A stretch of DNA of 16,233 nt, taken from assembly GCA_025362535.1 (NCBI GenBank), contig JANYGE010000164.1:1-16233 (forward strand), in the 5' to 3' direction. The notes beneath the pieces are model-generated. The model ran no database searches and had not been told where the DNA came from. It worked only from the letters and a program-made list of their open reading frames with translations. The stretch comes from Hyphomicrobiales bacterium. Lineage in GTDB: Bacteria > Pseudomonadota > Alphaproteobacteria > Rhizobiales > Aestuariivirgaceae. Positions within the stretch are counted from its first letter, which is position 1, and every line of letters begins with the position of its first letter. The position numbers were made by a program, and so were the translations under genes. Below, piece by piece: positions 1-14,777 of the stretch.

Positions 1-619
1 CATTCATATTTCATCGTTAGCAGCACGCATGCCTGCGCTCTCACCCTATGCCGCGAGCAAGCGGGCAGGTGAGGAATTCTTGCAGGCTGTAAAGAGCACC
101 ATGTCGATCACCCTGTTGCGGCCATCGGCGATTTATGGACCCGGCGACAAAGCCACTTTGCCCTTGTTGGCGGCTTTACAAAGAACCATTGCCTTGATCC
201 CAGGCTCTGCAGCCGCTCGTTTTTCGCTGCTGCATGTGCGTGATTTTGCGGCGGTGATCGTTGCTGCTGTCACCCGTGATGCTGCGGGCCTTTATGAAAT
301 CGATGATATGTCTGGCGGTCATAATTGGGCTGAATTATCTGCGTTAAATGTGCAAAGTTCTGGCCTGCCCAAGCGGATTGTCTATTTGCCGCGCTGGCTC
401 TTATCAGCTGTTGCCATCTTGGTGGAAGCTGTGAGTTTTATAACGCAAAAGCCGGGTATGATTACCCGCGCCAAACTGCGTGAGCTCTATCATGAAGATT
501 GGGTGGTGCAGGGGCCTGAATGGCCGAGGCCTCACCCTATTGGCCTTGCCGAGGGCTTGGGTGAAACATTAGAATGGTATCGAAGCCATGGTTGGCTGCG
601 ACCACTCACAACGACATAG
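1..619 (+). CDS. cerR: CerR-like NAD-dependent epimerase/dehydratase (3-ketoceramide reductase), 5' end missing
   Basis: This is the C-terminal part of an extended short-chain dehydrogenase/epimerase. The reading frame is open from base 2 and reads Ile-Ser-Ser-Leu-Ala-Ala-Arg before the ATG at 29. That ATG is therefore internal and the real start lies outside the window. Visible catalytic elements are the Ser pair (11-16) and the YxxxK motif YAASK (Tyr 47-49, Lys 59-61), followed by the family's substrate-domain motif RPSAIYGPGD. The N-terminal NAD-binding glycine motif is cut off. In Caulobacter, a protein of this type next to acp and spt reduces 3-ketoceramide to ceramide (established for CerR). 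Assignment here rests on the fold plus the neighbours acp and spt, which follow after 11 bases. It could instead be a sugar-nucleotide epimerase if the context misleads. The protein ends in a short Thr-rich tail with a TAG stop. Confidence 0.8.
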   Translation, partial: IHISSLAARMPALSPYAASKRAGEEFLQAVKSTMSITLLRPSAIYGPGDKATLPLLAALQRTIALIPGSAAARFSLLHVRDFAAVIVAAVTRDAAGLYEIDDMSGGHNWAELSALNVQSSGLPKRIVYLPRWLLSAVAILVEAVSFITQKPGMITRAKLRELYHEDWVVQGPEWPRPHPIGLAEGLGETLEWYRSHGWLRPLTTT

Positions 620-630
620 GAAAAGCTTTG

Positions 631-876
631 ATGGAAAATTCTAAAACAGTTACTGAAATTTGCACTTTGCTTTTGCCCTTTAATGCAACTGGCAAAAAGC
701 TTAGCGCGCAAACGGATATTCCGGCTGAGCTCAATATCGATTCCGTTGGTATTCTTGATTTCATTATGGAAGTTGAAGATCATTTCGATGTGGAAATTCC
801 GATGAATGTGGTTTCAGATATTCGCACCATCGGTGAGTTGGCCACCTATGTGCAATCGCAATTGGAGAAAGTGTGA
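631..876 (+). CDS. Dedicated acyl carrier protein of the sphingolipid locus
   Basis: This 81-residue acidic protein has the acyl carrier fold signature. The phosphopantetheine attachment site is Ser38 in LNIDSVGILD, and the following helix (FIMEVEDHFDVEIP) is the usual ACP recognition helix with acidic residues. The ATG at 631 is preferred because AGGAAAAG lies just upstream (618-625), overlapping the stop of the epimerase gene. An in-frame ATG at 574 would lie deep inside the upstream gene. The stop overlaps the spt start by 4 bases, so the two are probably translationally coupled. Its sequence looks specialised rather than like the fatty-acid AcpP (Val rather than Leu after the active Ser). 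By analogy with the Caulobacter locus it should carry the long-chain acyl group that Spt condenses with serine. The role is inferred from context; the ACP identity is clear. Confidence 0.9.
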   Translation: MENSKTVTEICTLLLPFNATGKKLSAQTDIPAELNIDSVGILDFIMEVEDHFDVEIPMNVVSDIRTIGELATYVQSQLEKV

Positions 877-2063
877 GCGTGGTTGATCTACTTGATAAGC
901 ACCGTGGCATTGCCGAGCGTTTTGAGCGCATCGTGGCGCTGGGTGAAAATGCTTTGGGTGTTACCAATGAGCGGATGATTTCGCCAACGCGCGCCATTGT
1001 GGGAAATCGCGAAATTATTTTGGCGGGCACCAATAATTATATGGGCATTACGTTTGATCCGCGCTGCATTGCTGCCGGGCAAAAGGCTCTTGCTGAATTT
1101 GGTACTGGCACCACGGGCTCACGCATTGCCAACGGCACATTCGCGCTGCACACAGCGCTTGAAAATGAATTGGCCAAATTTCTCAAACTCAAACATTGCA
1201 TCGCCTTCACCACTGGCTATCAGGCCAATCTTGGGATGTTATCCGGTTTGGCTGGTCCGCAAGATACCATTTATCTCGATGCGGATTCGCATTCTTCAAT
1301 TTATGATGGCTGCACACTTTCGGGCGCTAAGCTTGTGCGGTTCCGCCATAATGATGCGAGTGATCTCGATAAGAGACTGGCGCGCTCTGAAGGCGAAACC
1401 GGCGGTCGATTGGTGGTGTTGGAAGGCATTTACTCGATGATCGGAGACAGAGCACCGCTTGCTGATTTTGTGGCGCTCAAGAAGAAACATAATTTTCAAT
1501 TGCTGGTGGATGATGCCCATTCATTTGGGGTGATCGGGCCTGATGGGCGCGGCCTCGGCAATGAGGCGGGGCTGGAAGATGAAGTTGATTTTGTGATCGG
1601 CACATTTTCCAAAAGTGTAGGCGCTATTGGTGGGTTTGGTGCCAGCAATCACCCGCTGTTTAATACGCTGCGCTATGCCATGCGGCCTTATATGTTTACG
1701 GCCTCGGCCTCACCAGCCTCGGTTGCCACTTCGCTTGAGGCTTTACGCATTTTGGCGGCGGAACCAGAGCGGCGGCAGCGTCTGATGGAAAATTCTGCAC
1801 GGCTGTTCCATGGGCTTCGCGCCTTGGGCTTAGAAACCGGAAGCGATGTGGTGAGCCCCGTGATAGCTGTTAAATGTGCCGATGAGCAAAGCACGATTGC
1901 CAAATGGAATGCGCTTTTTGCGGCTGGCGTTTATGTGAATATGGCCATTCCGCCAGGCACACCTAATCGCCTTTGCTTGCTGCGCTGCTCGGTTTCAGCA
2001 GCGCATAGTTTCGATGAGATTGATAAAATCATTGCTGTGTTTAAAGCGGTTGTGGTGGATTAA
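873..2063 (+). CDS. spt: Serine palmitoyltransferase (PLP-dependent alpha-oxoamine synthase)
   Basis: This 396-residue cytoplasmic enzyme condenses an acyl thioester with L-serine to give a 3-ketosphingoid base. Visible active-site elements are His140 in DADSHSSI (stacks on PLP), Asp213 and His216 in VDDAHSFGV, and the Schiff-base Lys247 in GTFSKSVGAIGGF. The late PPGTP loop (360-364) leads to the carboxylate-binding Arg371 region (LLRCSVSAAH). Spacing between these residues matches the Sphingomonas paucimobilis enzyme closely. The GTG start at 873 overlaps the ACP stop (GTGA) and has GGAGAAA just upstream. The close relatives BioF (8-amino-7-oxononanoate synthase) and 2-amino-3-ketobutyrate ligase are less likely, given the GTFSKS motif and the flanking acp, cerR-like and ceramide-synthase-like genes. 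One oddity: the Arg that precedes the PPATP loop in the Sphingomonas enzyme is Ile359 here. Confidence 0.88.
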   Translation: MSVVDLLDKHRGIAERFERIVALGENALGVTNERMISPTRAIVGNREIILAGTNNYMGITFDPRCIAAGQKALAEFGTGTTGSRIANGTFALHTALENELAKFLKLKHCIAFTTGYQANLGMLSGLAGPQDTIYLDADSHSSIYDGCTLSGAKLVRFRHNDASDLDKRLARSEGETGGRLVVLEGIYSMIGDRAPLADFVALKKKHNFQLLVDDAHSFGVIGPDGRGLGNEAGLEDEVDFVIGTFSKSVGAIGGFGASNHPLFNTLRYAMRPYMFTASASPASVATSLEALRILAAEPERRQRLMENSARLFHGLRALGLETGSDVVSPVIAVKCADEQSTIAKWNALFAAGVYVNMAIPPGTPNRLCLLRCSVSAAHSFDEIDKIIAVFKAVVVD

Positions 2064-3130
2064 GCCCGCTCAGTGCGGGCCACAAAACTCAATCCAATTG
2101 TTGTGAAAATTAAAATCGGAGCCCAAGCGGCAAGCCACGGGGCCACAATGCCCAGTTCGCCCATAGTGGTTGATATGCCGTCGGAAATGAAGAAGAGAAA
2201 TCCGAGTGCAACGCCCACCACGAACAAATAGCCAAGCCCGCCGCCGCGCCGGAAGCGCGCCGCCATGGGCACACATAGCATGATCATAAGCAGCGAAATC
2301 ACAAATGCGGTGAGGCGCTTATGCCAATTGGTTTGATAGACATAGACTGGACGCAGACCATAACCTTGGTTCACAATAAAACTATCGAGTTCTCCCAAGG
2401 TCATGTCTTCGGGATCGCTGGAGCGGTTAGCACCCGCAGCTTGCATTTTGCCATCATAGATCAAACTGTCGAGACGATTGGGAACCTGAGTCCCATTGTA
2501 ATAGACCACAACTTTTTGCAAACGCCAGCGTCCATCTTCCTGGGTGGCACTGTCGGCATAGATTTGTTCTTTCAAGCGGCCATCATCACTGCGCCTGAAG
2601 ATAATCACATCTTCAAGCTGCTTGCCGTCTTGGCTCACCTTCGACACGCGCATAATATCAGCACCAGACCTGATCCAGATCGGGTCTTTGCTATCGACGT
2701 TGACTTTGTTTTTGGCATAGTCGCCGATCCCCCAGATTTTTAATGTGGGGGTAACGGCGGGAATAAGTCGGTCCAGCAGAATGAAGTGAAATCCGCCAAC
2801 AAAAACAGCCAATGGCAGAAGCATGATGATGATGCGAAGTGGTGAAATGCCAGCGGCAAAAATCGCTGTCATCTCGTTGCGATAGGTAAGCTCGGTTATG
2901 GTCAGCAATAGCGCGAGCAACATGCTCATCGGCAAAAACACCGCGAGAACAGCAGGGCTTCTGAACAACGCATAGCGCAGCAGCGCTTGGACCGGGCTCG
3001 GATTGAGGGCCAGAATATCACCAATAAAAGCCACAGATTCAAGCGTGATCACAAAAATGCTAATGCTGACCAATATGGTCATGAAGCGGATAAAAATCAT
3101 GCTGGTGAGAAAGCGGGCTATTCTGCTCAT
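2060..3130 (-). CDS. LptF/LptG-family (YjgP/YjgQ) permease within the ceramide locus
   Basis: This 356-residue inner-membrane protein has the LptF/LptG layout. Three hydrophobic segments lie at the N terminus (about 15-37, 58-80, 98-118), then a periplasmic beta-jellyroll-like domain (about 125-260, including WIRSGADIM and GRWRLQKVVVY), then three C-terminal segments (about 273-293, 300-318, 328-350). The motif YQTNWHKRLTAFVISLLMIM at the start of the fourth segment is characteristic. Canonical LptF and LptG sit with LptB as the LPS-extracting ABC complex and are usually encoded as an adjacent pair. Here the gene stands alone, 27 bases after the metallophosphoesterase gene and convergent with spt. 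I infer either a paralogue devoted to (glyco)sphingolipid transport or the genome's LptG relocated here; the window cannot distinguish these. The stop overlaps the spt stop by 4 bases (TTAA). Confidence 0.85.
   Translation of the reverse strand: MSRIARFLTSMIFIRFMTILVSISIFVITLESVAFIGDILALNPSPVQALLRYALFRSPAVLAVFLPMSMLLALLLTITELTYRNEMTAIFAAGISPLRIIIMLLPLAVFVGGFHFILLDRLIPAVTPTLKIWGIGDYAKNKVNVDSKDPIWIRSGADIMRVSKVSQDGKQLEDVIIFRRSDDGRLKEQIYADSATQEDGRWRLQKVVVYYNGTQVPNRLDSLIYDGKMQAAGANRSSDPEDMTLGELDSFIVNQGYGLRPVYVYQTNWHKRLTAFVISLLMIMLCVPMAARFRRGGGLGYLFVVGVALGFLFFISDGISTTMGELGIVAPWLAAWAPILIFTTIGLSFVARTERA
2064..2080. terminator. Palindromic hairpin at the convergent spt / LptG-like stop codons
   Basis: GCCCGC (2064-2069) and GCGGGC (2075-2080) are perfect inverted repeats around a 5-base loop, starting directly after the spt stop codon and lying within the last codons of the opposing gene. 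A hairpin forms in either transcript. No real U tract follows on the + side (CACAAAAC), and only UUAAU follows on the - side. It is therefore at best a weak or bidirectional terminator, or simply codon constraint (Ala-Arg-Thr-Glu-Arg-Ala). Confidence 0.3.
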
Positions 3131-3157
3131 ATTACTTCGCCGATGAAACTGGTGGCA

Positions 3158-4060
3158 TTATGAGGCACCTTCCAAATTAAAGCTATCGCCATCACTGAAG
3201 CTGTTTGCCTCCGCGTTCCAATTTCGAATTTGCACGTGGGTTTTCCAGGTGCCTTTGTAGCGCTCAATATCATAGCGGTTCCATGCTGCAGGCGGGTGAT
3301 TGCTGCCTGCTGCCATTGAGGCAGAGGGTACGCCAAGCACCGGAATTCTTGTGGTGTCACTCACGATTTCATTGAAATTACGCTGGTGATTATGGCCATG
3401 AATCACCAGTTCAGCACCTTGCTTTTTAAGCACGGCTTCAAGCGCGCTGGCATCAGACAAAGATCGGATGTTGGAGGTCATGCCGGGGGCAGGCGGGTGG
3501 TGGATCATCACCAGTCGGTAAAATCCACGCTCCCGCAGGCTTTGCAAATTGGTGTCAAGTTTTTGCAATTGATCAGTGCCAACAGTTCCGCCCGCTCCCA
3601 ATAGAAGCTGCGGGCAGGCCGCATGTATTCCAATGAGTGCCACATTGCGGCGCAGCCTGATGAAGGGCAGGCTTTCATCCTTGGCAATTTCGTTGGTCAT
3701 GTAATTGGAAAATTTGCCGAGGCCTTTAGCCAAAGGCAATTTCACATAAGCATCGTGATTGCCCGGCGTGAAAGACACAAAATCGCTCGAGCCAAAACCA
3801 TTCAACCATTTTAACCCCTGATCAAATTCAGCGGCGGCGGAGATATTCACCAAATCTCCGGTGAAGGCTACATGATCAGGATTTGCTGCCAGAATATCAG
3901 CGCGCAGCGCATCGGCAATTTGCGGCAGGTGATGTTTCTTGCGGTTCATATGCCATGAGGCCGCACCAATTATTTTCTTGAAGGCAAAATCCTGCAGCAC
4001 CGCACCCTTGGGTAAGGGGCCAAGATGGGGATCCGAAAAATGGGCGAGAGAAAATGTCAC
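3158..4060 (-). CDS. Calcineurin-like metallophosphoesterase
   Basis: This 300-residue protein carries every metal-binding block of the calcineurin-like phosphoesterase superfamily, in order: Asp10-x-His12 (FSDPHLG), Gly68-Asp69 (FTGDLVN), Gly100-Asn-His-Asp103 (PGNHDAYV), His187-His188 (MIHHPPAP) and the C-terminal GHNH (222-225). No signal peptide is visible, so it should act in the cytoplasm on a phosphomono- or diester. The substrate cannot be read from the sequence. The start is GTG at 4060 (reading MTFSLAHFSD), 6 bases after the stop of the ceramide-synthase-like gene, and the LptG-like gene follows 27 bases later. This operon position suggests a role in lipid head-group or intermediate metabolism, for example hydrolysing a phospho-lipid or nucleotide-lipid intermediate. 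That is inference; CpdA-like cyclic nucleotide or LpxH-like nucleotide-sugar-lipid activities are alternatives. Confidence 0.85.
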   Translation of the reverse strand: MTFSLAHFSDPHLGPLPKGAVLQDFAFKKIIGAASWHMNRKKHHLPQIADALRADILAANPDHVAFTGDLVNISAAAEFDQGLKWLNGFGSSDFVSFTPGNHDAYVKLPLAKGLGKFSNYMTNEIAKDESLPFIRLRRNVALIGIHAACPQLLLGAGGTVGTDQLQKLDTNLQSLRERGFYRLVMIHHPPAPGMTSNIRSLSDASALEAVLKKQGAELVIHGHNHQRNFNEIVSDTTRIPVLGVPSASMAAGSNHPPAAWNRYDIERYKGTWKTHVQIRNWNAEANSFSDGDSFNLEGAS

Positions 4061-4066
4061 GAAGGC

Positions 4067-5203
4067 CTAGAGCTGCTTTTCGTAGATGCGGTAGGTTTTA
4101 TAGACTTTACCACCAATCGACTCGATGAGATTTTTGATGCGCTCATTGTCTTCCAATATCCATGAGAGCTCGATTTCCTTAACGCCACGGGGGCCATGGA
4201 ATTCATGAATTTTTTTGATGAGGCCATAAGATAAAGCAGCACCAATCGCACTGTCTTGAAACTCCTGTTTGATGCCCATCAAGGGAATGCGGAAGGAGCT
4301 CGCCTTCTTGGTGATGAGTTTGCCAATGAGGCGCGGCAGGCCGCGTGGCAAAAGCTTACCATTCAAGCCAGAAAACCATTCATTGAGATTGGGCATGGCC
4401 ACAATGAAGGCCGCACTCTGGCCTTTGTAATAAGCGATCTGCACTGAGTTCTTGTCCACCAGTAATTTCAGGTTGGTCGCAAGCATTTGCAATTCGGCCT
4501 CGGTGAAGGGCACATAATTCCAATTCTTGCTCCAGGCATCATTGAATATTTCCATGATGGTTTGGATTTCAGTTTTAATCTTTGACTTGTTGAGGGGGCG
4601 GAATTCAAGATCGCCGGATTTTGTCGCCCATTTATAGCGCCGCTCTAAATCGGCAGGCAGGGGATCATCAAATTTACGAATATAAGCAAGCAAGTCTTTG
4701 GCTTTGTGAAAGCCATTGGCTTTTACGTGGGTTTCATAAAACGGTCTGGCATGGCCCATCAACATGTTTGGTGGAGTATTGAAACCATCAACCAACAATC
4801 CGCTCTCGTCATTGATCGAAAAACTAAAGGGTCCATGAACCTGGGTCATGCCCTTTTGGCGCAACCAGTTTTCTGCTGCTTCAAACAGGCTCGCGAATAT
4901 TTCTGGATCATCCGGCGCGTCGAGAAACCCAAATTGCCCGCATTTATCTTTATAGCGTTCCAGATGGAGCTGATCGATTTGCGCCGAAATTCGGCCAACT
5001 GGCTTTCTATCTTTTTCAGCAATGAACAGCTGTGCTGTGGCATGCCTGAAATAGGGGTTCTTTTTTTCATCGAGATGTTCGAGCCGCTCAAAATAAAGCG
5101 GGGCGACCCAATTTTTGTCATCGGCAAAAATCGCAAATGGAACGCGCAAAAAATCGAGCTTGTCGGCCTTGGTGATAACTGGCCGGATGGTGATGGCACT
5201 CAT
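4067..5203 (-). CDS. bcerS: Bacterial ceramide synthase-type N-acyltransferase (GNAT superfamily)
   Basis: The 378-residue length and sequence layout resemble the GNAT-related family whose Caulobacter member acylates 3-ketosphinganine with a fatty acyl-CoA. There are two GNAT-like halves. The N-terminal half (about 1-175) includes HGPFSFSINDESG (123-135) and the block MGHARPFYETHVKANGFHK. The C-terminal half (about 198-375) contains QDSAIGAALSYGLIKKI, an acyl-CoA-binding-like helix region, and ends in the usual GNAT tail ELSWILEDNERIKNLIES. No membrane segment is obvious, so it is cytoplasmic or peripheral. The ATG start at 5203 overlaps the stop of the ABC exporter gene (ATGA), implying translational coupling. 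The acp, spt and cerR-like genes lie on the opposite strand about 2 kb away. Function is inferred from family resemblance and locus context. A generic uncharacterised N-acetyltransferase remains possible, but the context makes it unlikely. Confidence 0.78.
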   Translation of the reverse strand: MSAITIRPVITKADKLDFLRVPFAIFADDKNWVAPLYFERLEHLDEKKNPYFRHATAQLFIAEKDRKPVGRISAQIDQLHLERYKDKCGQFGFLDAPDDPEIFASLFEAAENWLRQKGMTQVHGPFSFSINDESGLLVDGFNTPPNMLMGHARPFYETHVKANGFHKAKDLLAYIRKFDDPLPADLERRYKWATKSGDLEFRPLNKSKIKTEIQTIMEIFNDAWSKNWNYVPFTEAELQMLATNLKLLVDKNSVQIAYYKGQSAAFIVAMPNLNEWFSGLNGKLLPRGLPRLIGKLITKKASSFRIPLMGIKQEFQDSAIGAALSYGLIKKIHEFHGPRGVKEIELSWILEDNERIKNLIESIGGKVYKTYRIYEKQL

Positions 5204-6909
5204 TTGGGTTTTGCCTTTGATTTTTTAAGTTCGGCGATCTTGCCTTTTTCGACCTTATAGAGTTTGTCGGCGATTGCTGTCCATGCCGGACGGTGGGTGA
5301 TTGCAATAATTGTGTAGCTGCTGCGCAGCTCAAGAATATTGCGCACAATCTCGGCTTCGGTTTCGGGGTCAAGCGCACTGGTCACCTCATCAAGAATGAT
5401 GAGTTTTGGGTTTTTAACCAAGGCGCGGGCCAATGAAATGCGTTGTTTCTGGCCGCCAGATAATTTGCCACCCATTTCTCCCACATCAGTGTTCAATCCT
5501 TCGGGAAGGGCTGCGATAAACTCTTTTGCGCCAGCCCGATCTAACGCTTTCTCCACATCAGCAGTTGAAACAGTGAGATCAGAGAGAGACACATTGGCCT
5601 CAATGCTATCGTGAAACAACACAAGTTCCTGTGGCACATAGCCAATGTTTTTGCGCCAGAGTGTGAGATCAATATCTTGCAGATCGTCATTGCCAATTTT
5701 AATCTGGCCTTTTTGCGGCTTATGAAAACCGATGAGAAGATCAATGATTGTGGTTTTGCCAGCCCCCGATGGCCCTTGCAAAACGGTGATCTGGTTTGCC
5801 GGAATCATAAAGGATAAATTGCTCACGGTTGGCTGCTTGCCATGGGCAAAGGATACGTTTTCGAAATTGCAGCCTTGCATGATATTTGGCGCTTTCGTGC
5901 CTTCGCTTTGTTCCTGTGCGGCTTCAGCTTTTTTAATGTCTTCAATCACGGCAAGATAAGAGCTTTCAAGCTGCACGGCAGATTGATACTGCTTTTGCAA
6001 ACGTGAAATGCTGAATATGACTTGATAGAAGAGCAAACCAAACACCATCAATTCGGGCAGGCTCAAATTGGCAAATCTATGTGCAAGATAAGCCGATGCG
6101 GCTATGGCCACGGATGTCATCGCATCGCTGCCATAGGTCAACCCGGCTTTTGCAACATTGCCTTGGAGCAAACTCCGCTTGATGTATTTGAGTTGTGATC
6201 CCAGCTTTTCAACCAAGGCATCATAGCGATGCATGGATTTCAAAGCTTTCATATTGTGCATGATGTCAATCATGTCAGAGGTGAAATTGGCCACGCGATT
6301 GGTAATTTTACTGCCACTCTTACGCGCCACATGAATGAGCCGTGAGGAGACAAGCGCAATCAGACCGCCTGCAATAAAGCCAGCCAAGGTGACACGCCAA
6401 TTGATGAAGAAGGCTGCGGCGGCATAGGCCATAATTTGCACCAGCATCGCCGTAACGGTGGCTGCAGTTGCATAGGCGCTGCCTGCATTGCCCGCATTGT
6501 TACTGATCGAATTGGCAATGTCGCCGCCGCTTTGATCGTTGTAAAAACTCCAACGCGCCCGAAAAATGGCGCGGATCATGCGTTGACGGAGATCAATGGT
6601 GACACGCGCTGCCGCAATGCCTGAATAGGTGTTGGCAAAAAACAGCAGGGCCGAACGCAGCAGCATGAATATCGTTAACAACAGTAAAAGCGATTCAAAG
6701 CTCGGCGTTAATCCGAATACGGATAATATGGATTTGAAGTACCCATCAAGCGGAGAGGTGGTGCTTTTATCACCGAGCATGGCACCGGCCAGAGGTAAAA
6801 TACTGCCAATGCCAACGGCTTCAGCAAGTCCGCCAGCCAAGAGACAAAACAACACCACCCACGGCTTGGTCTTTTCGGCGTTAAAGAAAATTTTCAGGAT
6901 TTGGATCAT
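5200..6909 (-). CDS. MsbA-type ABC exporter (fused TMD-NBD half transporter)
   Basis: This 569-residue half transporter should work as a homodimer in the inner membrane. The N-terminal ~320 residues carry the exporter transmembrane domain, with clear hydrophobic segments near 17-45, 72-92, 150-170, 172-190, 262-278 and 284-304. The nucleotide-binding domain follows: Walker A GPSGAGKTT (379-387), Q loop YVPQE (424-428), signature LSGGQ (483-487), Walker B LIILDE (503-508) and H-loop His539. All catalytic residues are intact. It ends in a Lys-rich tail. It is the first gene of the minus-strand operon and overlaps the ceramide-synthase-like gene by 4 bases. MsbA relatives flip lipid-linked substrates, so a ceramide or sphingolipid flippase is the natural hypothesis. 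General peptide or drug export cannot be excluded from sequence. A candidate promoter lies about 45-75 bases upstream. Confidence 0.9.
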   Translation of the reverse strand: MIQILKIFFNAEKTKPWVVLFCLLAGGLAEAVGIGSILPLAGAMLGDKSTTSPLDGYFKSILSVFGLTPSFESLLLLLTIFMLLRSALLFFANTYSGIAAARVTIDLRQRMIRAIFRARWSFYNDQSGGDIANSISNNAGNAGSAYATAATVTAMLVQIMAYAAAAFFINWRVTLAGFIAGGLIALVSSRLIHVARKSGSKITNRVANFTSDMIDIMHNMKALKSMHRYDALVEKLGSQLKYIKRSLLQGNVAKAGLTYGSDAMTSVAIAASAYLAHRFANLSLPELMVFGLLFYQVIFSISRLQKQYQSAVQLESSYLAVIEDIKKAEAAQEQSEGTKAPNIMQGCNFENVSFAHGKQPTVSNLSFMIPANQITVLQGPSGAGKTTIIDLLIGFHKPQKGQIKIGNDDLQDIDLTLWRKNIGYVPQELVLFHDSIEANVSLSDLTVSTADVEKALDRAGAKEFIAALPEGLNTDVGEMGGKLSGGQKQRISLARALVKNPKLIILDEVTSALDPETEAEIVRNILELRSSYTIIAITHRPAWTAIADKLYKVEKGKIAELKKSKAKPK

Positions 6910-6954
6910 ATTTTAAGAGTTACTCGATTTTGATTCAGCGCAGCGTTGAAATCA

Positions 6955-6982
6955 ATTATAGCGATTGCTGCAGCTGCACAAG
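6955..6982 (-). promoter_or_regulatory. Candidate promoter of the ABC exporter - ceramide synthase operon
   Basis: On the minus strand, a perfect TATAAT box lies at 6960-6955, with a weak -35-like CTTGTG at 6982-6977 (16-base spacer). The -35 keeps only the CTTG of the CTTGAC seen in many alphaproteobacterial promoters. Transcription would begin near 6948, giving a leader of about 40 bases to the ATG at 6909. It sits in the divergent gap between the exporter and NUDIX genes. Support is positional and by hexamer match only. Confidence 0.4.
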
Positions 6983-6983
6983 C

Positions 6984-6987
6984 GAGG
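6984..6987 (+). promoter_or_regulatory. Ribosome binding site that fixes the NUDIX start
   Basis: GAGG lies 5 bases before the ATG at 6993. The longer alternative, a TTG at 6930, has no such element and would add a Cys-rich, non-conserved N-terminal extension, so the ATG is preferred. Confidence 0.55.
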
Positions 6988-6992
6988 TTCCG

Positions 6993-7463
6993 ATGGGTTT
7001 TAAAAGCGGTTTTTTCAAGGTTGCGAACCTCACGGTGCAGCAGCCCTTGGCGCGGATCACGCGCGGCATGACGCTGGGCGCGCGGGTGGCGGTGCTTGAC
7101 GATCAGGGCCAAGTTATGTTGGTGCAACATACTTATTCACCTGGGTGGATTTTGCCGGGTGGTGGAGTGGAAAAAGGCGAGACTTTGGTTGCGGCCGCTT
7201 TGCGTGAGATTCGTGAAGAGGCTGGGATTATTGGTGAGGCGCCTGTGTTGCACGGGATATTCTCCAATGAGCCGGCTTTTCGGGGGGATCATGTGGCGTG
7301 TTTTGTGGTGCGCAAATTTTCGCGGGCAGCATGGAAACCCAATATGGAGATTGCCGCCGCGCAGTTTTTTGCGGTGGCTGATTTGCCGGAAGCAACCACC
7401 GGAGGCACCCGTCGGCGTCTTGCTGAAATCATCCATGGTGCGGCCATTTCTGAAATGTGGTGA
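6993..7463 (+). CDS. NUDIX hydrolase, MutT-like
   Basis: This 156-residue cytoplasmic protein hydrolyses a nucleoside diphosphate linked to some moiety X. The Nudix box is complete at residues 57-79, fitting GX5EX7REUXEEXGU exactly, with metal-binding glutamates in REIREE. Just before it comes HTYSPGWILPGGGVE, typical of a common small NUDIX group. Substrate specificity is not readable. The gene stands alone, divergent from the ABC exporter, and is followed by a non-coding stretch with hairpins before the next + strand gene. There is no strong link to the sphingolipid locus other than adjacency. Confidence 0.85.
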   Translation: MGFKSGFFKVANLTVQQPLARITRGMTLGARVAVLDDQGQVMLVQHTYSPGWILPGGGVEKGETLVAAALREIREEAGIIGEAPVLHGIFSNEPAFRGDHVACFVVRKFSRAAWKPNMEIAAAQFFAVADLPEATTGGTRRRLAEIIHGAAISEMW

Positions 7464-7601: not shown

Positions 7602-7621
7602 CTGCATATATGAGAATTGCC

Positions 7622-8185
7622 ATGAGCTTTAAACTAACGCCTGTCGCTGCACTTGCCGCTGATCACGCCGCCATTGAGAACCTCCTTGATTTAGCCTTTG
7701 GTCTGGGGCGTCGGACCAAAACATCTTATCGTTTGCGCGAGGGCAGCATGCCTGTTGCTGGATTGTCGCTGGTTATTCGAGACAGTGAAGTTGGGCTGGC
7801 CGGGGCCATTTCCTATTGGCCATTGGTGGTGGGCAAAGACTTTAAACCAGCAATTTTGCTGGGGCCTTTGGCCGTGCATCCGGCGCGACAAAATCTGGGG
7901 ATTGGCCGGGCGCTGATGATAGAGAGCCTGGCTGCAGCACAGCGCTTGGGCCATCAGCTGGTTATATTGGTGGGCGATGCGCCCTATTATGCGCGGGTGG
8001 GGTTTAAAAAATTGCCAGAAGGATTGCTGCAATTGCCGGGGCCATTTGATCCAGCGCGGTTTTTATATTTGGAATTGGTCGAGGGTGCTTTGCAAGGTGT
8101 GGCAGGCATGGTGCTGCCGCCGTTTCGCCAAGCTGAGTTATCCCAAACTGAACTATCAGCGGCCCTCACGCAGCCACATGGCTGA
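7622..8185 (+). CDS. YhbS-type GNAT family N-acetyltransferase
   Basis: This 187-residue cytoplasmic acetyltransferase contains the acetyl-CoA-binding motif A at about 80-99 (LGPLAVHPARQNLGIGRALM; the QNLGIG stretch is the Q/RxxGxG/A loop) and the C-terminal YYARVGF motif (122-128). Overall layout matches the YhbS group. The acceptor substrate is unknown. The ATG at 7622 is preferred because GAGAA lies 5 bases upstream; an in-frame ATG at 7610 would add four residues (MRIA) and has a poorer ribosome site. The 3' end overlaps the convergent vWA-protein gene by 30 bases. The gene is probably transcribed alone, behind a structured leader. Confidence 0.82.
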   Translation: MSFKLTPVAALAADHAAIENLLDLAFGLGRRTKTSYRLREGSMPVAGLSLVIRDSEVGLAGAISYWPLVVGKDFKPAILLGPLAVHPARQNLGIGRALMIESLAAAQRLGHQLVILVGDAPYYARVGFKKLPEGLLQLPGPFDPARFLYLELVEGALQGVAGMVLPPFRQAELSQTELSAALTQPHG

Positions 8186-10213
8186 GGCGATGATCAGCAA
8201 AGCCAGCAGACTAAGCAAAGTTGAAAACAGCGGAATTTCTTTCACGGCGGTAACGCGGTAAATATTATTGTCGCGCAGATTTAACCAAGCAGAACCCGCC
8301 ATGATGTGGCCGGGGGCTGCCTTGGCGATGCGCGGCATGCCATCTTCCAACCAGATTAAAGCGCCCCCAGTTGCCTTGGCCACGGGGATTAGCTTTTCTG
8401 AAGTGGCGTGAATTTCGGTGGCTTCTTTGGCATCAGCATTGCCGATTGCGGCGGCGGCTTGCAATGTGCCATCGGTTAACGTGTAAAGGCCAGCCTCTGC
8501 AGCGGGAATTCTCGCCGTGAACAGTCCGGGCGAGCTTGGGCTTAAGGCTTTTGTTTCAGTCTTGCCGGAAGGGGCTGTGATGGTGACGGGCTTGGCTGTA
8601 TCTGCCATGCTGCGGCGCTCGACCACAATATCGGCACCCATTTGTTTGGCCGAGAGGAACTCTTCCTCAAGATCAGGTTCCTTCATCAACCAATGGGCCA
8701 TGCGGCGCAGCAATTCGGTTTGAGGCCCACCGCCTTCATAGCCTCTGGCCCAGAGCCAACCGTGATCTGACAGAAGCTGAGCCACACGGCCATCACCCGC
8801 ATGGCTGAGCACCAGCAAGGGCTTGCCATCAAGACCAGACATCAGCGTTTCGGCTTGGTCTGATACGGTGCTGTCAATCAAACGAAACCACCGGCCCCAA
8901 CTCGGTTTGCCATTATTGGCGTTGGGCAGGTTTTTGGTAACAGGGTGGCGGTTGCCTTGCTCGGTGACGGTGGGTTTAAACGGCGCTTCGGAGACCGACC
9001 CTGTGGGGGCCGCTGGCAAAACATCAGAAAGCGGTGTGCTATAAAGCCCATCAGCATCGGCATAGTCCGGCCCAGATGCCACCAGCAAGGCGCCACCTTT
9101 GCGCACATAGTCGGCGATATTGGCGATATAGGAATCGGGTAGAATGGCTTGGCGGCGGTAGCGATCAAAAATCACCAGATCAAACTGGTCGAGCTTATCA
9201 ATGAAAAGTTCGCGCGTTGGAAAAGCAATTAAAGATAATTCTTTGGTCGGCGTTCCATCCTGTTTTTCGGGCGGGCGCAGAATGGTGAAATGCACCAGGT
9301 CAACCGAACTATCAGCCTTGAGGAGATTGCGCCAGGTGCGTTCACCCGGATGCGGCTGGCCCGAAACGAGAAGCACCCGCAAGCGGTCGCGGATGCCTTC
9401 GATCACAGTAACCGTCCGATTATTTTGAGTTGAAAGTTCGCCCTCGCGTAACGCAGCCGAAACCTCCACCACATTCTGTCCGGCATGGGTGATGCGCAGT
9501 TGCACATCATTCACTTCACCGGGGGTCACATTGAGCAGGCGTGGTTCTTCGCCCGCCAGCTGAATGGTCACTTGAATGTTGGTGTAGCTGCGATCAGATT
9601 CTTCCACATGAAATTGCAGCGATTGATCTTGGCCGACAATGCCAAAATGCGGGCTGCGATCAATCACAATGCGGCGATCACTTTCATTTTTGCTGCCAGT
9701 GATCAGGCTGTGCACAGGAACAGAGAGGGTGGCAAGGTTCTGCGGAATATCATGCACTTGACCATCGGTGATCATAATTGCTCCGGCGTAACGGTCCTTT
9801 GGAATATCCGCCACAGCGCGGTTGAGCGCAGTAAACAGCTTGGTGCCGCCGCCATCGGTTGCCAATCCGGAGGTGACTGTGATCACGCGCAATTCAGTGT
9901 TCGGCAATTGGCTGACGCGCTGCTTTACCTCATTCAAAGCTTTTTCAGTTTGCGCAGTTCGGCCTGCCAGAGCCTGGCTTTGGCTTTGATCCACAATCAG
10001 CACGGCAATATCATTGAGGGGCTGGCGTTCTTCTTGGCGGACCGTGGGGTTCGACAAGGTTGCGATAAGCAGGGCTGCCGTTGCAGCGCGGAGAAGGCCC
10101 CCGCGCAGGCCCTTGATAAATATGAAACCGATCAAGGCGATGGCAAGCGCCGCGAAGGCTGCAATTAAAGGCCAAGGCAGCAGGGGGGCAAATTCGATAT
10201 TTTCGATATTCAT
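8156..10213 (-). CDS. Membrane-anchored vWA and glutamine-amidotransferase-like domain protein
   Basis: This 685-residue protein is the last gene of the MoxR operon. Hydrophobic segments lie near 12-34 and 38-53 at the N terminus and about 662-680 at the C terminus, so the bulk is probably periplasmic. A von Willebrand A domain (about 67-180) keeps a MIDAS-type metal site: Asp75-x-Ser77-x-Ser79 (VDQSQS), Thr124 and Asp150 (ITDGQ). A Rossmann-like, glutamine-amidotransferase-like domain follows at about 278-480 (LLVSGQPHPGERTW, FDLVIFDRY, GGALLVASGP), without a recognisable catalytic Cys triad, so it is probably a binding fold. vWA proteins partner with MoxR AAA+ ATPases in several systems. 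The start is 1 base after the stop of the DUF4159 gene. The 3' end overlaps the GNAT gene by 30 bases. Specific function unknown. Confidence 0.75.
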   Translation of the reverse strand: MNIENIEFAPLLPWPLIAAFAALAIALIGFIFIKGLRGGLLRAATAALLIATLSNPTVRQEERQPLNDIAVLIVDQSQSQALAGRTAQTEKALNEVKQRVSQLPNTELRVITVTSGLATDGGGTKLFTALNRAVADIPKDRYAGAIMITDGQVHDIPQNLATLSVPVHSLITGSKNESDRRIVIDRSPHFGIVGQDQSLQFHVEESDRSYTNIQVTIQLAGEEPRLLNVTPGEVNDVQLRITHAGQNVVEVSAALREGELSTQNNRTVTVIEGIRDRLRVLLVSGQPHPGERTWRNLLKADSSVDLVHFTILRPPEKQDGTPTKELSLIAFPTRELFIDKLDQFDLVIFDRYRRQAILPDSYIANIADYVRKGGALLVASGPDYADADGLYSTPLSDVLPAAPTGSVSEAPFKPTVTEQGNRHPVTKNLPNANNGKPSWGRWFRLIDSTVSDQAETLMSGLDGKPLLVLSHAGDGRVAQLLSDHGWLWARGYEGGGPQTELLRRMAHWLMKEPDLEEEFLSAKQMGADIVVERRSMADTAKPVTITAPSGKTETKALSPSSPGLFTARIPAAEAGLYTLTDGTLQAAAAIGNADAKEATEIHATSEKLIPVAKATGGALIWLEDGMPRIAKAAPGHIMAGSAWLNLRDNNIYRVTAVKEIPLFSTLLSLLALLIIASAMWLREGR
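8171..8184. other. Short palindrome inside the convergent gene overlap
   Basis: CAGCCA (8171-8176) and TGGCTG (8179-8184) are inverted repeats around a 2-base centre, within the last codons of both convergent genes. It could slow or stop polymerase from either side but lacks a T run. Chance or codon constraint is equally plausible. Confidence 0.22.
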
Positions 10214-10214
10214 G

Positions 10215-12950
10215 TCATTGCCCTAATCTTTCGAGCAGTGCCGGAATATGCACTTGATCTGTTTTGTAATTGCCAGTCAGAGCATACATCACGACGTTGA
10301 CGCCCACTCTAAACGCCATTTCGCGCTGGCGCTCTGAACCGGGGATCAGCGCATTCATCGGCTCGCCCTTCTCGTTGAGCGCCCAAGCGGCGGCATAATC
10401 ATTGGAGCCGATGATGATGCCGGAAACCCCATCTGAATTATTGGATGCAGCATTTGCATCCTGGGTTTCAACCCAGAGCGGGCCACCCTCATAACGGCCC
10501 GGAAATTTTTTCAACAAATAGAATGAACGCGTCAGCACATGGTTTTCAGGCACGGGCTCAAGCGGCGGAATGTCGAGGTTTGCGAGAATGCGCTTCAAGG
10601 CCTCGCCCGTGGCGCTGCCGCTGCCAAAATCGCCACCGCTATCGCGCAGATCAAAGAAAATCGTACCGCCATTACGCATATAGCTATCAAGCTTATTCAA
10701 GGTGGCATCAGTTGGGGCCTGATCATTTTCAGTAACGGGCCAATAGAGCAGCGGAAAAAAAACCAGATTATCGGTTTCGATATTGATCCCCACCGGGTCA
10801 CCAAGAGCCGCCGATGTGCGGTCATCCATCACCAAACCCAATCCTTTAAGGCCCCGTTCGCTTGTCTCATCAATTTCGGCATTGCCAGTTTTCACATAAG
10901 CCAGATGGGTTTCAAGAGCGGCAGCCATATCAGACTGATCATCGGCCTTGGCCTTTTGTGGTGGTAAAATGAGGAGTGTGCCGAGTGCTAAGAGTACGGC
11001 AAGGCTTGGGCCTTGGCTGCGTCTTCTAAAGGCCCCGCCGAGCAACAAGGCCGCCAGACTATCGGCCAGAAACAGCAAAGCTGCGGCACTGAAAAGTTGC
11101 GGTGCAAGTTCCTTGCTTTCAGGGGCTACACGTTTTTGCAAAGGAACAGCAGTGATCGGCGCAAGATCAGTCTCGCCGAGATTGAGATTGATCGCCCGCT
11201 CTTGGCCACCACGCAGATAAAGCCCTGCAGGCGACTGTGCCGAGGCAGGTGTTGTGTCAAATTTCGAAGCTGGAATTGAGTGGAGTGTTGCCGTGGGGCT
11301 CACCAGTTCGCCATTGCCAGTTAAGACCAGATGCGGTGCAAAATCTTCGGCTGTGGCAGCACTGGCATTGGCTGCTGCATTGCTGCCAGCTGCTGGCGCC
11401 AGATCAACAATACGCTGCAGCATTTCAACGAAAGTGCCTGACAGCGGCAGATTGGACCAATCTGGATTTGCGGTGATGTGAAATAGAATGATCAGGCCTT
11501 TGCCTTCCTTAGAGGCGGTGACCAGAGGTGTGCCATCAGCCAGACTGCTCCAGGTTTTTTCTGAAAGATCAATATCAGGCTCGGCGAGCACTTGGCGCGA
11601 AACGGTGATGCGATCATCAATGGCAATGCCTGAAAAGGGCGATTTATCGTTGAAGGCTTGCAGGGTCTGCGGGGTTTCCCAACTCAAGGCATTGCCAAGA
11701 TTGCGGTCACCTTCACGCAATTTAACCGGAATGAGATCATCGGTTGCAGCCGCCAATCGGGGTCCGGCAAAGCGCAGCAACACACCGCCTTTTTCGATCC
11801 ACGGCTTTAACAGATCATGGGTGTCTTTGGTCACCCGGCCAATATCGGCCAGCACCAGCATGGAAAGGCCTGCATCAAGCTCGGCTTTCAAATCGGCTGC
11901 AGTGGCGGGTTCATGCAGATCAGCAAACGGGGCCAGCGCATTGCTGACGTAATGCAAAGGCGAGAGCAAGGGCTGGGCAGCTTCCTGAGCAGAGCCGGTT
12001 TGAATGGCAATGGTTTTGCGACGCCAGCGATCATCCAGCAATTGCGTGGCTCCAGCTTGGTGCTCGCTGGCAATTGAAATTTTTTGAATTTCATTGCGCA
12101 GCTCTACGGGCAAATCAATTTTTGCCGTCACCGAAGTTTTGCTGGCAAAATCCAAGGGCAATTCAGCAAGCACACGGCCATCGCTGGCGCTGGCTTGTAA
12201 CACTGCGGTGTTAGGCGCTGCGGGGCTGCGCAAGGCGGTGATTTTAATATCAGCGCCATCAATTGTCGGGCGTGAAATGGCGAGAGGTAAGTCGGCGCTA
12301 TCGAGGGTCAATGCTGTGATGGTATTGCCATAGAGCTTAGTGAGGCCTTGGGCAAAAGCGCTGGAGGAGCCTGCATCTAAACCATCACTCAGCCAAGTTA
12401 CACTGGCTGCATCTGGTTTTTGCTGGGTGAGGCGGGCGAGCAGGGCCAAGCGATCAGTGTTCAAAGCTTGCGGGGTGGTTGCCCGAATGGTGCTTAGGGC
12501 ATCACCAGCCGCCACAGCCTTTAGAGTTGAAGGCGACAAAGTGGGGGCGGTGGTTGCAAGCGTCACAATGCGATTTGCAGCGCGGGCTTCTTCCAAAATA
12601 CCAATCAAGGTATCTTGACGCTTCGACCATGATTTTGCAGCGGCCCAGCCATCATCAACAATCAGCAATAAAGGCCCCGAGGTTTGGTTGCTTGTGGCAC
12701 TCTGGTTTAACAGGGGATGCGCCACCGCGACGATTAAAAGTGCTGCCATTGCAAGGCGCAGCAGCATAAGCCACCACGGGGTTTTATCAGGCGTTTCTTC
12801 TTTTGAGCGTAAGCTCAGCAGAATGCGCAGCGGCGGAAATTTTATAGTTTGCGGGCGCGGCGGAGTAAAGCGCATCAACCACCATATGACCGGAAGCGCC
12901 AATAGGCCCCAGAGCGCCAGCGGCGTTACAAAGCTGAGATTGCTCATCAT
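10215..12950 (-). CDS. BatA-like / DUF4159 membrane protein
   Basis: This 911-residue protein opens with the BatA (aerotolerance) N-terminal module: a first membrane segment at about 8-26, the FTPPRPQTIKFPPLRIL stretch, and a second segment at about 59-78. A vWA-like region follows (about 93-225), but the first metal motif reads VDDGWA instead of DxSxS, so metal binding is probably lost. A Rossmann/amidotransferase-like region lies at about 355-520. Two more hydrophobic segments (about 616-640 and 649-663) precede the C-terminal DUF4159 domain (about 670-911; LVFFPLLYWPVT, MRNGGTIFFDLRD, VNVVMYALTGNYKTDQVH). The start overlaps the DUF58 stop by 4 bases (ATGA). It is likely a scaffold or effector for the MoxR ATPase at the inner membrane. 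Function not established. Confidence 0.8.
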   Translation of the reverse strand: MMSNLSFVTPLALWGLLALPVIWWLMRFTPPRPQTIKFPPLRILLSLRSKEETPDKTPWWLMLLRLAMAALLIVAVAHPLLNQSATSNQTSGPLLLIVDDGWAAAKSWSKRQDTLIGILEEARAANRIVTLATTAPTLSPSTLKAVAAGDALSTIRATTPQALNTDRLALLARLTQQKPDAASVTWLSDGLDAGSSSAFAQGLTKLYGNTITALTLDSADLPLAISRPTIDGADIKITALRSPAAPNTAVLQASASDGRVLAELPLDFASKTSVTAKIDLPVELRNEIQKISIASEHQAGATQLLDDRWRRKTIAIQTGSAQEAAQPLLSPLHYVSNALAPFADLHEPATAADLKAELDAGLSMLVLADIGRVTKDTHDLLKPWIEKGGVLLRFAGPRLAAATDDLIPVKLREGDRNLGNALSWETPQTLQAFNDKSPFSGIAIDDRITVSRQVLAEPDIDLSEKTWSSLADGTPLVTASKEGKGLIILFHITANPDWSNLPLSGTFVEMLQRIVDLAPAAGSNAAANASAATAEDFAPHLVLTGNGELVSPTATLHSIPASKFDTTPASAQSPAGLYLRGGQERAINLNLGETDLAPITAVPLQKRVAPESKELAPQLFSAAALLFLADSLAALLLGGAFRRRSQGPSLAVLLALGTLLILPPQKAKADDQSDMAAALETHLAYVKTGNAEIDETSERGLKGLGLVMDDRTSAALGDPVGINIETDNLVFFPLLYWPVTENDQAPTDATLNKLDSYMRNGGTIFFDLRDSGGDFGSGSATGEALKRILANLDIPPLEPVPENHVLTRSFYLLKKFPGRYEGGPLWVETQDANAASNNSDGVSGIIIGSNDYAAAWALNEKGEPMNALIPGSERQREMAFRVGVNVVMYALTGNYKTDQVHIPALLERLGQ

Positions 12951-13795
12951 GCGTTGCTCACTTTCGCATGCAAAGCAAGAAGGCAGGTGGTGAGGGGCTG
13001 ATCCGTGCGGTGCACTGTAAAGCTCCAGCCCAAACGCGCCGCCAATTGCTTGGTGGAATCTCGTTGGGCTTGATAGGCCGCAGCATAGGCCCCGCGCAGA
13101 TTTTCAGTTTTGCTGGCGAGAAAGCGTTGCGGAAATTCGAGGCCCAAGAATTCCACACGGCCAGAATAGGGAAGGGTCTCTTCGGCAGGATCAGCGATTT
13201 GCACGAGATGCCCGCGCACGCCGCTTTGCGCCAGTGGTGTGAGGGCCGATTTTATGTCTGCTGGATCATCCAGAAAATCTGAAATTAAAACCGCGGCGGA
13301 TTGGCGCTGCAGCTGCGTGGGTTTAGGCAAGGGCTGATCATTTGGGGTTTCGCAATGCTCAGCAATCTGGCGCAAAGCTATTCTGCCATGAGCAGGGCGA
13401 TTGTGGCTGCCAATGGCGCCGATCCGCTCATGGGCGCGAATGGCAAGGCTGGCCAAGGCCAGTTGCAAAATTTGGGCGTGATGCTTTTTGGTTTCAGAGG
13501 CCAGATGCGATTTGAAATCCATGCGCGGGCCAGCGTTCGACCACAGCCATAAGGTGTTGGCGGCCTCCCATTCATTATCGCGGATATATACCGCATCAGA
13601 TTTAGCGCTTCGGTGCCAATCAATGCGCTGGGTTGAATCGCCAAAACTATAATTGCGATATTGCCAGAAATTTTCGCCGGGGCCAGCACGCCTGCGGCCA
13701 TGCACACCAAGGATCACGGTGGCAGCAATACGCTCGGCCTTCACCAAGAGGGGGGGAAGGCTTTGCGATAATTGCTCGGCACGCTGGCTTAACAC
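12947..13795 (-). CDS. DUF58 domain protein
   Basis: This 282-residue protein carries the DUF58 signature at about 33-80: GRRRAGPGENFWQYRNYSFG, then GDSTQRIDWHRSAKSD with the invariant Asp-Trp, then VYIRDNEWE. The remainder looks like a vWA-type fold (VLISDFLDDPADI). No membrane segment is evident. DUF58 proteins nearly always follow a MoxR ATPase gene and are thought to act with it; the biochemical role is not defined. The start is GTG, 1 base after the MoxR stop, and the stop overlaps the next gene (ATGA), so the four genes are probably made as a unit. Confidence 0.85.
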   Translation of the reverse strand: MLSQRAEQLSQSLPPLLVKAERIAATVILGVHGRRRAGPGENFWQYRNYSFGDSTQRIDWHRSAKSDAVYIRDNEWEAANTLWLWSNAGPRMDFKSHLASETKKHHAQILQLALASLAIRAHERIGAIGSHNRPAHGRIALRQIAEHCETPNDQPLPKPTQLQRQSAAVLISDFLDDPADIKSALTPLAQSGVRGHLVQIADPAEETLPYSGRVEFLGLEFPQRFLASKTENLRGAYAAAYQAQRDSTKQLAARLGWSFTVHRTDQPLTTCLLALHAKVSNA

Positions 13796-13796
13796 G

Positions 13797-14777
13797 TTAG
13801 GCGAGGCTCTTGGCTAAGTGGGCGATGACTTGCGTAACGGTGGTGCCATCGGCACGCGCTGCGAAGTTCAATGCCATGCGATGCTTGAATACGGGCTCCA
13901 GCAACGCGATTACATCCTCAACTGAAGGCGAGAGGCGGCCTTGCAACAAGGCCCGTGCTCTGGCGCAGAGCATCAGGGCTTGGCTGGCACGGGGGCTTGG
14001 CCCCCAAGCGACAGAGTCATTGATCAGCTTATCAGCATCAGGCCCTGGCCTTGCCGCCCGCACCACTTTGAGAATAGCGTCAGTCACTTGCTCACCCACC
14101 GGCACAAGCCGCGTGAGCTGTTGGGCAGTGAGAAGATCTTGCGTTGAGAGAACAGGTTTAGGCAGCACTTCTTCATTGCCCGTGGTGGCAAAGAGCATGC
14201 GGCGTTCAGCCTCCAAGGGCGGATAGGAAATATCAATTTGCACGAGGAAGCGATCAAGCTGCGCTTCGGGTAGGGGATAGGTGCCTTCTTGCTCGATGGG
14301 GTTTTGCGTGGCGAGCACATGAAAGGGTTCCGGCAGATCATGGCGCTCACCTGCCACTGTCACATGATGTTCCTGCATCGCTTGCAACAAGGCGGATTGG
14401 GTGCGTGGACTAGCACGGTTGATTTCATCGGCCATCAACAATTGGCAAAACACCGGGCCCGGTACAAAGCGAAAGGCGCGTTTGCCCTTATCATCAGCAT
14501 CAAGAATTTCTGAACCGAGAATATCGGCGGGCATTAAATCTGGGGTAAATTGCACCCGCTTTTCGCTGAGGCCCAGAACTGTGCCAAGCGATGTGGCCAG
14601 TTTGGTTTTGGCAAGTCCAGGTGCGCCCACAATCAAGGCATGACCCCCGGCGAGAATAGCGATCATGGCGAGTTCAATCACATCATTCTGGCCGAAGACC
14701 ACCAGATTAAGTGCATCGCGCGCACTTGCCAGTTTTGCTGCTGTTGCTTCAAGTTCGGTTACGGTTTTTTTGGCCAT
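13797..14777 (-). CDS. MoxR-family AAA+ ATPase
   Basis: This 326-residue cytoplasmic AAA+ ATPase of the MoxR group is the first gene of a four-gene operon. Visible elements are Walker A GAPGLAKT (51-58), the FTPDLMPADILGSE block (77-90), Walker B LLMADE (113-118), sensor 1 ATQNP (156-160), the EGTYPLPEAQLDRF motif with its conserved Arg176, and a C-terminal lid ending PSPRASQALMLCARARALLQG. MoxR ATPases are believed to act as chaperones that remodel or mature partner complexes together with vWA proteins, which are encoded just downstream here. The ATG at 14777 has AGGGA close upstream on the minus strand. It diverges from the DUF1285 operon. Confidence 0.92.
   Translation of the reverse strand: MAKKTVTELEATAAKLASARDALNLVVFGQNDVIELAMIAILAGGHALIVGAPGLAKTKLATSLGTVLGLSEKRVQFTPDLMPADILGSEILDADDKGKRAFRFVPGPVFCQLLMADEINRASPRTQSALLQAMQEHHVTVAGERHDLPEPFHVLATQNPIEQEGTYPLPEAQLDRFLVQIDISYPPLEAERRMLFATTGNEEVLPKPVLSTQDLLTAQQLTRLVPVGEQVTDAILKVVRAARPGPDADKLINDSVAWGPSPRASQALMLCARARALLQGRLSPSVEDVIALLEPVFKHRMALNFAARADGTTVTQVIAHLAKSLA

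Follow-up and report, generated by a model that had tools for sequence, protein, structure and literature searches.

The window analysed here is the whole of a 16,233-nucleotide contig (JANYGE010000164.1, C281) from a Hyphomicrobiales bacterium. It carries bacterial ceramide-synthesis genes that converge on an arm encoding a ceramide-synthase-like protein (bCerS), a calcineurin-like metallophosphoesterase (MPE), an ABC exporter and a permease related to LptG of the lipopolysaccharide (LPS) transport machinery. The source genome (G000) is a fragmented metagenome-assembled genome of 2.8 Mb in 469 contigs, 92.8% complete. The following genes were observed directly at the locus:

2–619, + strand: 3′ fragment of a cerR-like gene for an NAD-dependent epimerase/reductase, cut by the contig start (PF01370 Epimerase, 42 bits)
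631–876, + strand: acp, acyl carrier protein (ACP) of the serine palmitoyltransferase (Spt) pathway (ATG at 631; PF00550, 37.8 bits, scanned as 634–876)
873–2063, + strand: spt, serine palmitoyltransferase (NCBIfam NF047599, 566 bits against a cut-off of 500)
2060–3130, − strand: lptG of the ceramide-linked clade, LptG2-type (PF03739, 212 bits; TIGR04408, 206 bits, under the cut-off of 240)
3158–4060, − strand: mpe, calcineurin-like metallophosphoesterase (PF00149, 50.5 bits; catalytic motifs intact)
4067–5203, − strand: bcerS-like gene for a tandem-GNAT N-acyltransferase, assigned as a ceramide synthase by fold and context
5200–6909, − strand: ABC exporter, a half transporter with a transmembrane and a nucleotide-binding domain (TMD-NBD), candidate flippase (PF00664, 78.8 bits; PF00005, 117.9 bits)

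The convergent layout described in the initial annotation was confirmed, with the cerR fragment, acp and spt on the forward strand facing the exporter, bcerS, mpe and lptG on the reverse strand. The close packing reported there is exact: the exporter and bcerS overlap by 4 bases (ATGA, 5200–5203), and a 6-base gap (4061–4066) separates bcerS from mpe. acp and spt also overlap by 4 bases, 27 bases lie between mpe and lptG, and the ends of spt and lptG, on opposite strands, have the 4 bases TTAA in common. The bCerS-like protein was recognized by its acyltransferase fold and its place in an spt/cerR locus; a sequence search of the PDB with it gave no convincing match. Spt and bCerS of Caulobacter are described as cytoplasmic and CerR as periplasmic (PMC11087976), and the same 2024 paper speaks of no known sphingolipid flippase or transporter in that organism.

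bCerS loci were surveyed by tblastn (E value 1e-6, 50 bits). The best 80 of 519 confirmed homologues were kept, a rule that tilts the survey toward close relatives, and a gene was counted wherever it was present in a locus. In the 49 named loci that are flanked on each side by at least 8 kb, a set from which 31 short-flanked loci are excluded, bcerS is accompanied by MPE in 41, LptG in 40, LptF in 36 and spt in 37; over all 80 loci the counts are 57 for MPE and 52 each for LptG and LptF. Within the Aestuariivirga-type genus of the source genome (25 genomes, G000 included), bCerS was detected in 24, the exception being a genome that is 66% complete (G009), and bcerS, mpe and lptG are grouped in the same order in all 21 loci that reach that far (L033–L053; some with genes between). 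Given this retention in the genus and the frequency of MPE and LptG in the named loci, the grouping is not due to chance. The initial annotation had read the arm as a synthesis-coupled export route in which the ABC protein flips the lipid, the phosphoesterase processes a head group or intermediate and the LptG-like protein feeds it onward. That idea holds for the permease and partly for the phosphoesterase, which the survey places regularly near bcerS, and is weak for the exporter, which immediately precedes bcerS in 13 of 49 loci.

The genes that intervene in genus loci encode a MobA-like nucleotidyltransferase, a second nucleotidyltransferase, a HIT protein, LptF, a CDP-alcohol transferase, a diacylglycerol (DAG)-kinase-like protein and an unassigned protein; by family they resemble the Caulobacter phosphosphingolipid set as described in PMC11324152. 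A search for Spt on plasmids led to plasmid p1 of Roseomonas mucosa (L212, NZ_CP147881.1), where genes annotated as metallophosphoesterase, HIT, LptF and LptG lie near acp-spt with a DUF2141 gene in between. This large plasmid-borne sphingolipid cluster also contains DAG kinase, CDP-alcohol transferase and oligosaccharide-flippase genes.

LptF/LptG clades and lipopolysaccharide genes

The PF03739 domain of the window LptG is near full length (212 bits, profile positions 1–349 of 353), and the closest PDB chains are LptG. The protein nevertheless misses the NCBIfam LptG equivalog cut-off (206 versus 240 bits), which an ordinary LptG from the same order (G030) passes with 265 bits. Among the 120 listed of its 405 homologues, those named by their source are mostly called lipopolysaccharide export permease, an automatic name that is possibly misleading. 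Two LptF/G genes were found in G000: the window LptG, which is the only LptG recovered by the genome search, and an LptF on contig C23 beside a phosphoenolpyruvate carboxykinase gene.

A tree of 130 rows, built without the exceptionally long G038_C197_5376, divides both LptF and LptG into an ordinary type (16 + 16 rows) and a ceramide-linked type (52 + 46 rows), with Shimodaira-Hasegawa-like approximate likelihood ratio (SH-aLRT) support of 91–99. A separate LptG tree of 52 rows, 11 rows having been thinned, recovers the split with 100/100 support. The clade membership of the window LptG was thus observed directly: it falls in the separate, bCerS-linked clade, for which the name LptG2-type is borrowed from Caulobacter, whose sequences are not among the tree rows. 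bCerS is no more than 16.5 kb away for 75 of the 98 ceramide-type rows and for none of the 32 ordinary rows. Genomes from other families of the order that lack bCerS have the ordinary type only (13/13). This count rests on 21 of 21 copies in 11 genomes that fit the ordinary profiles best, a classification outside which a third, sub-cut-off match of G035 stands, and on two genomes (G026 and G037) that are ordinary in the tree. Both types occur together in eight genomes that have bCerS as well as LpxC (G030, G061, G062, G120, G145, G146, G172 and G177). G009, with no bCerS detected, carries the ceramide type.

Of the LPS pathway, LpxC, LpxB and KdtA were each found in 0 of the 25 genus genomes. 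Among 16 other members of the order, the same models matched LpxC in 14, LpxB in 11 and KdtA in 12. Two of these 16 that have bCerS (G028 and G038) yielded none of the three. The Lpt genes are kept: LptFG in 25/25, LptD in 25/25 and LptC in 23/25 genus genomes (41/41, 41/41 and 38/41 over the whole order set). LptF, LptB, LptC, LptA and LptD were all found in G000, with lptC-lptA-lptB-rpoN on C422 and lptD-surA-pdxA on C228; LptB was recognized solely from its ABC domain and location. On this gene content, lipid A would not be the cargo of Lpt in the genus. Comparative evidence strongly supports the permease part of the export proposal: the bCerS-linked LptFG clade supplies the only LptG type found in a genus in which LPS genes are undetected. 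The missing LPS genes, the partner LptF encoded elsewhere (C23) and the retention of LptA, LptB, LptC and LptD did not figure in the initial annotation.

The site of the ordinary pair could be inspected directly. We compared pepA-lptD stretches from 13 LPS-positive and 25 LPS-less genomes, a set that does not include G016 and G017 of the genus or G029 of the order. LPS-positive relatives show the order pepA (divergent), lptF, lptG, lptD, surA (not always detected) and pdxA; 11 of 13 stretches have lptF-lptG flanked by pepA and lptD, and the other two end at contig ends, consistent with this order. In 24 of the 25 LPS-less stretches, pepA adjoins lptD and neither lptF nor lptG is matched in between, which indicates that the LPS-type lptFG was lost from a conserved site while lptD was kept. 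One of these (G022) contains a reading frame of 816 codons at this point that matches neither gene, and the stretch of G028 has neither pepA nor the lptF-lptG pair. In G000, a contig end holds the start of pepA, which shares 70% identity with the pepA starts of G003 and G021. The genus appears to have lost both LPS and the ordinary LptFG copy.

A sample of 144 alphaproteobacterial genomes allowed copy numbers to be counted directly across the class. bCerS without LpxC occurs in 14 genomes, both in 10, neither in 10 and LpxC only in 110 (Fisher p 2e-7, phylogeny ignored); four genomes (G165, G173, G179 and G180) were assigned to the LpxC-less group by elimination. Genomes with bCerS and no LpxC have two LptFG copies in 13 of 14 cases, and in these 13 the sole type is ceramide-linked. 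Genomes with both bCerS and LpxC have at least four copies in 7 of 10. Outside the genus, 12 bCerS-only genomes possess an LptFG pair, and in all of them it lies 0.9–6.2 kb from bCerS.

Cargo of the ceramide-linked Lpt machinery

The window LptG, the LptF of C23 and the retained LptABCD are best read as a sphingolipid-dedicated Lpt exporter. Since the genus has apparently lost LPS together with the ordinary copy, we infer that sphingolipids are the most likely cargo of the ceramide-side pump. Spt and its dedicated ACP would form 3-ketosphinganine, which the bCerS-like protein would N-acylate in the cytoplasm. The lipid would then be flipped (the neighbouring ABC exporter is a candidate for this in the source lineage) and reduced by CerR on the periplasmic side. 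LptG, LptF and LptB could form an LptB2FG-type extractor that lifts the sphingolipid from the inner membrane and hands it to LptC, LptA and LptD for passage to the outer membrane. The bridge formed by these three would first have served LPS; lipid A synthesis would later have disappeared from the lineage along with the LPS-type lptF-lptG pair, and the rest would have been kept. Such a loss, with the rest kept, suggests that the cargo switched by way of the sole remaining, ceramide-linked LptFG module. We assign a probability of about 0.8 to the reading that the locus makes ceramide and encodes an inner-membrane permease sending it outward through an Lpt bridge switched from LPS. The broader proposal for the LPS-less genus, that the entire bridge including LptD was reassigned from LPS to sphingolipid, with the LPS module deleted and the paralogous LptFG kept, is probable on comparative grounds, if less so.

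Two other accounts of the cargo deserve consideration. The ceramide-linked LptFG might move another lipid, such as a glycolipid or phospholipid, and lie near ceramide genes only through shared regulation of the outer membrane. The cargo is deduced from gene context and some genomes have third LptF/G copies, both of which leave room for this account; we think it improbable, as the clade occurs among classified genomes only where bCerS was found, save in the incomplete G009, and stands alone in 13 of the 14 LpxC-less genomes with bCerS (the other, G095, having no LptFG). Hopanoids were rejected as cargo because Aestuariivirga is listed without shc. Alternatively, the LPS genes might have diverged beyond the reach of the models, so that LPS is still made, LptFG and LptD serve it and the ceramide link is incidental. 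The Lpt proteins are indeed kept and the negatives cover three LPS-pathway families only, but the models that match most other members of the order find none of the three in 25 genomes, and what is missing is exactly the LPS-type lptFG. We rejected this explanation, which seems highly implausible.

Several observations weigh against a sphingolipid cargo, or limit its reach. The source genome is a fragmented assembly, so its own gene absences are read from the genus. The identity of the protein encoded at 4067–5203 is drawn from fold and context, and we call it bCerS-like. The lptF of G000 is unlinked to the window locus; in six genus members (G003, G013, G016, G020, G021 and G022) the sole LptF-type copy is divergent and unlinked, and six genus genomes have a third LptF/G-family copy. 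G038, which has none of the three LPS genes, keeps an ordinary-type LptG besides a ceramide-type pair. Across the class, two genomes with bCerS and LpxC (G068 and G104) have only ordinary LptFG (2 copies), as does G093 (2 copies), which has LpxC and a weak partial bCerS match; no LptFG was detected in G095; and the Fisher tests ignore phylogeny. Ten genomes lack both LpxC and bCerS, which implies that LPS loss has other routes.

The third copies that score over the cut-off lie on contigs other than that of bcerS (G001:C2, G006:C783, G008:C294, G018:C22, G019:C150 and G024:C200), and the one in G006 is near a second lptD. The ten genomes without LpxC and bCerS (G045, G056, G059, G088, G091, G112, G117, G127, G135 and G155), many of them small, reflect either another route of LPS loss or assembly gaps. 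Three of them (G088, G112 and G155) have ordinary-type LptFG; a third copy in G112 was not placed in the tree.

Residues lining the LptG cavity give a mixed answer. K40 and K41 of E. coli LptG are described as touching the inner core and the 4′-phosphate of lipid A (PMC6744409). When 16 ordinary and 46 ceramide-type rows were aligned to E. coli LptG, these two columns were basic in 15/16 and 15/16 ordinary rows, compared with 12/46 and 3/46 ceramide-type rows, which are acidic in 9/46 and 36/46. Thus the ceramide type mostly loses the basic pair that ordinary alphaproteobacterial LptG keeps. The K34 column is acidic in both clades (15/16 and 44/46) and the R136 column is basic in neither (0/16 and 1/46). 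The R133 column is reversed, acidic in 14/16 ordinary rows and basic in 29/46 ceramide-type rows, which runs counter to a simple loss of lipid A contacts and counts as a further point against the sphingolipid reading. Moreover, K40 and K41 are reported in PMC5548808 as not conserved, with a K40E/K41E double mutant that grows normally. Because the column patterns are mixed and the pair is reported to be dispensable, the change in cavity charge is only suggestive.

The proposed system can be compared with several known ones. The LPS-exporting LptB2FGC-A-D complex likewise combines a PF03739 permease and LptF partner with LptA, LptC, LptD and an LptB-like protein; G000 differs in that its LptG belongs to a separate clade under the NCBIfam cut-off and LpxC, LpxB and KdtA were not found in its genus. 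The Caulobacter cluster CC_1168–CC_1152, as presented in PMC11324152, also has ceramide genes in the region of a second LptF/LptG. Olea-Ozuna and colleagues (2024) put forward LptC2, LptF2, LptG2 and a flippase as probable sphingolipid transporters, a proposal only (PMC11324152). In that account Caulobacter has LPS, and its LptC2/F2/G2, encoded in one cluster with flippase CC_1166, are second versions, whereas G000 has a single LptFG pair, the only one found, an unlinked lptF, one detected LptC, no phosphosphingolipid genes at the locus and an ABC half transporter as candidate flippase. LPS-lacking diderms such as Borrelia burgdorferi, according to PMC10353723, similarly possess Lpt-like bridges for trans-envelope transport; in G000, unlike these, genes for making the presumed cargo adjoin that of the permease.

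The route of sphingolipids to the outer membrane is stated to be unknown in two 2024 papers (PMC11324152 and PMC11087976). Our search, mostly of the open literature, turned up no publication that deals with sphingolipids or a loss of LPS in Aestuariivirga and none on LPS-less genomes with only a ceramide-linked LptFG pair. If the sphingolipid reading is correct, the outer leaflet of these bacteria is built by an Lpt machine that never meets LPS. A genus without detectable LPS genes and with only the ceramide-linked LptG offers a clean system for cargo change in Lpt, free of LPS background, and a natural experiment on lipid recognition. It also serves as a warning that automatic annotation gives the name of LPS exporter to permeases of organisms in which no LPS pathway is detected.

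The phosphoesterase, the ABC exporter and flanking genes

MPE contains all of the metal-binding motifs of its family (DxH, GD, GNH, HH and GHxH), and D10, H12, D69, N101, H102, H188, H223 and H225 are invariant in 20 aligned sequences. Its structure model has a predicted local distance difference test (pLDDT) score of 92.4; a sequence search of the PDB gave nothing useful, the best match being Rv0805 (E 0.077). Searches for a homologue of the ceramide-kinase-type neighbour gave none in G000, G003, G013, G016 or G021, nor in G012 (79% complete). bcerS, mpe and lptG are retained in the first five, so permease and phosphoesterase are not tied to this kinase. MPE may act on a lipid or head-group intermediate, as the initial annotation supposed; what stands of that claim is the conserved place near bcerS, the head-group role itself being conjectural.

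How the phosphoesterase and exporter relate to transport can be read in other ways. By analogy with Caulobacter CC_1158, for which PMC11324152 suggests a head-group role in phosphosphingolipids, MPE could be a head-group enzyme for CPG/CPG2-like lipids and no part of transport, a tenable view to which we give somewhat less than even odds and which sits poorly with the five kinase-less genomes that keep MPE. In its first form, the export proposal joined exporter, phosphoesterase and permease in one dedicated, synthesis-coupled unit. The 4-base overlap and 6-base gap favour such a unit, as does the frequency of MPE and LptG near bcerS. The exporter fits it badly: it is directly upstream of bcerS in 13/49 loci (16/72 among loci with at least 2.5 kb upstream) and absent from that position in genus members such as A. 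litoralis (locus only examined), Roseomonas instead has an annotated oligosaccharide flippase beside acp-spt, and LptG also needs LptF, which G000 encodes elsewhere. A unit that includes the exporter is therefore unlikely, and we rejected it. The exporter is no general part of the arm, and a role for it in moving ceramide is hypothetical.

The label "MsbA-type" also proved loose. The exporter scores 258 bits against the MsbA model TIGR02203 (cut-off 602), slightly more against HepA, and is under the PglK cut-off as well. It shares the TMD-NBD half-exporter architecture of the MsbA and PglK flippases, falls under both cut-offs and lies beside bcerS in some relatives only. It is perhaps a lineage-specific flippase.

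Beyond the exporter, positions 8156–14777 of the window hold putative BatA-like, DUF4159, DUF58 and MoxR genes; they adjoin the ceramide locus in most genus loci inspected. A NUDIX gene (6930–7463) and a GNAT gene (7610–8185) lie between the ABC exporter and this MoxR-type operon and occupy the same place in most genus loci inspected.

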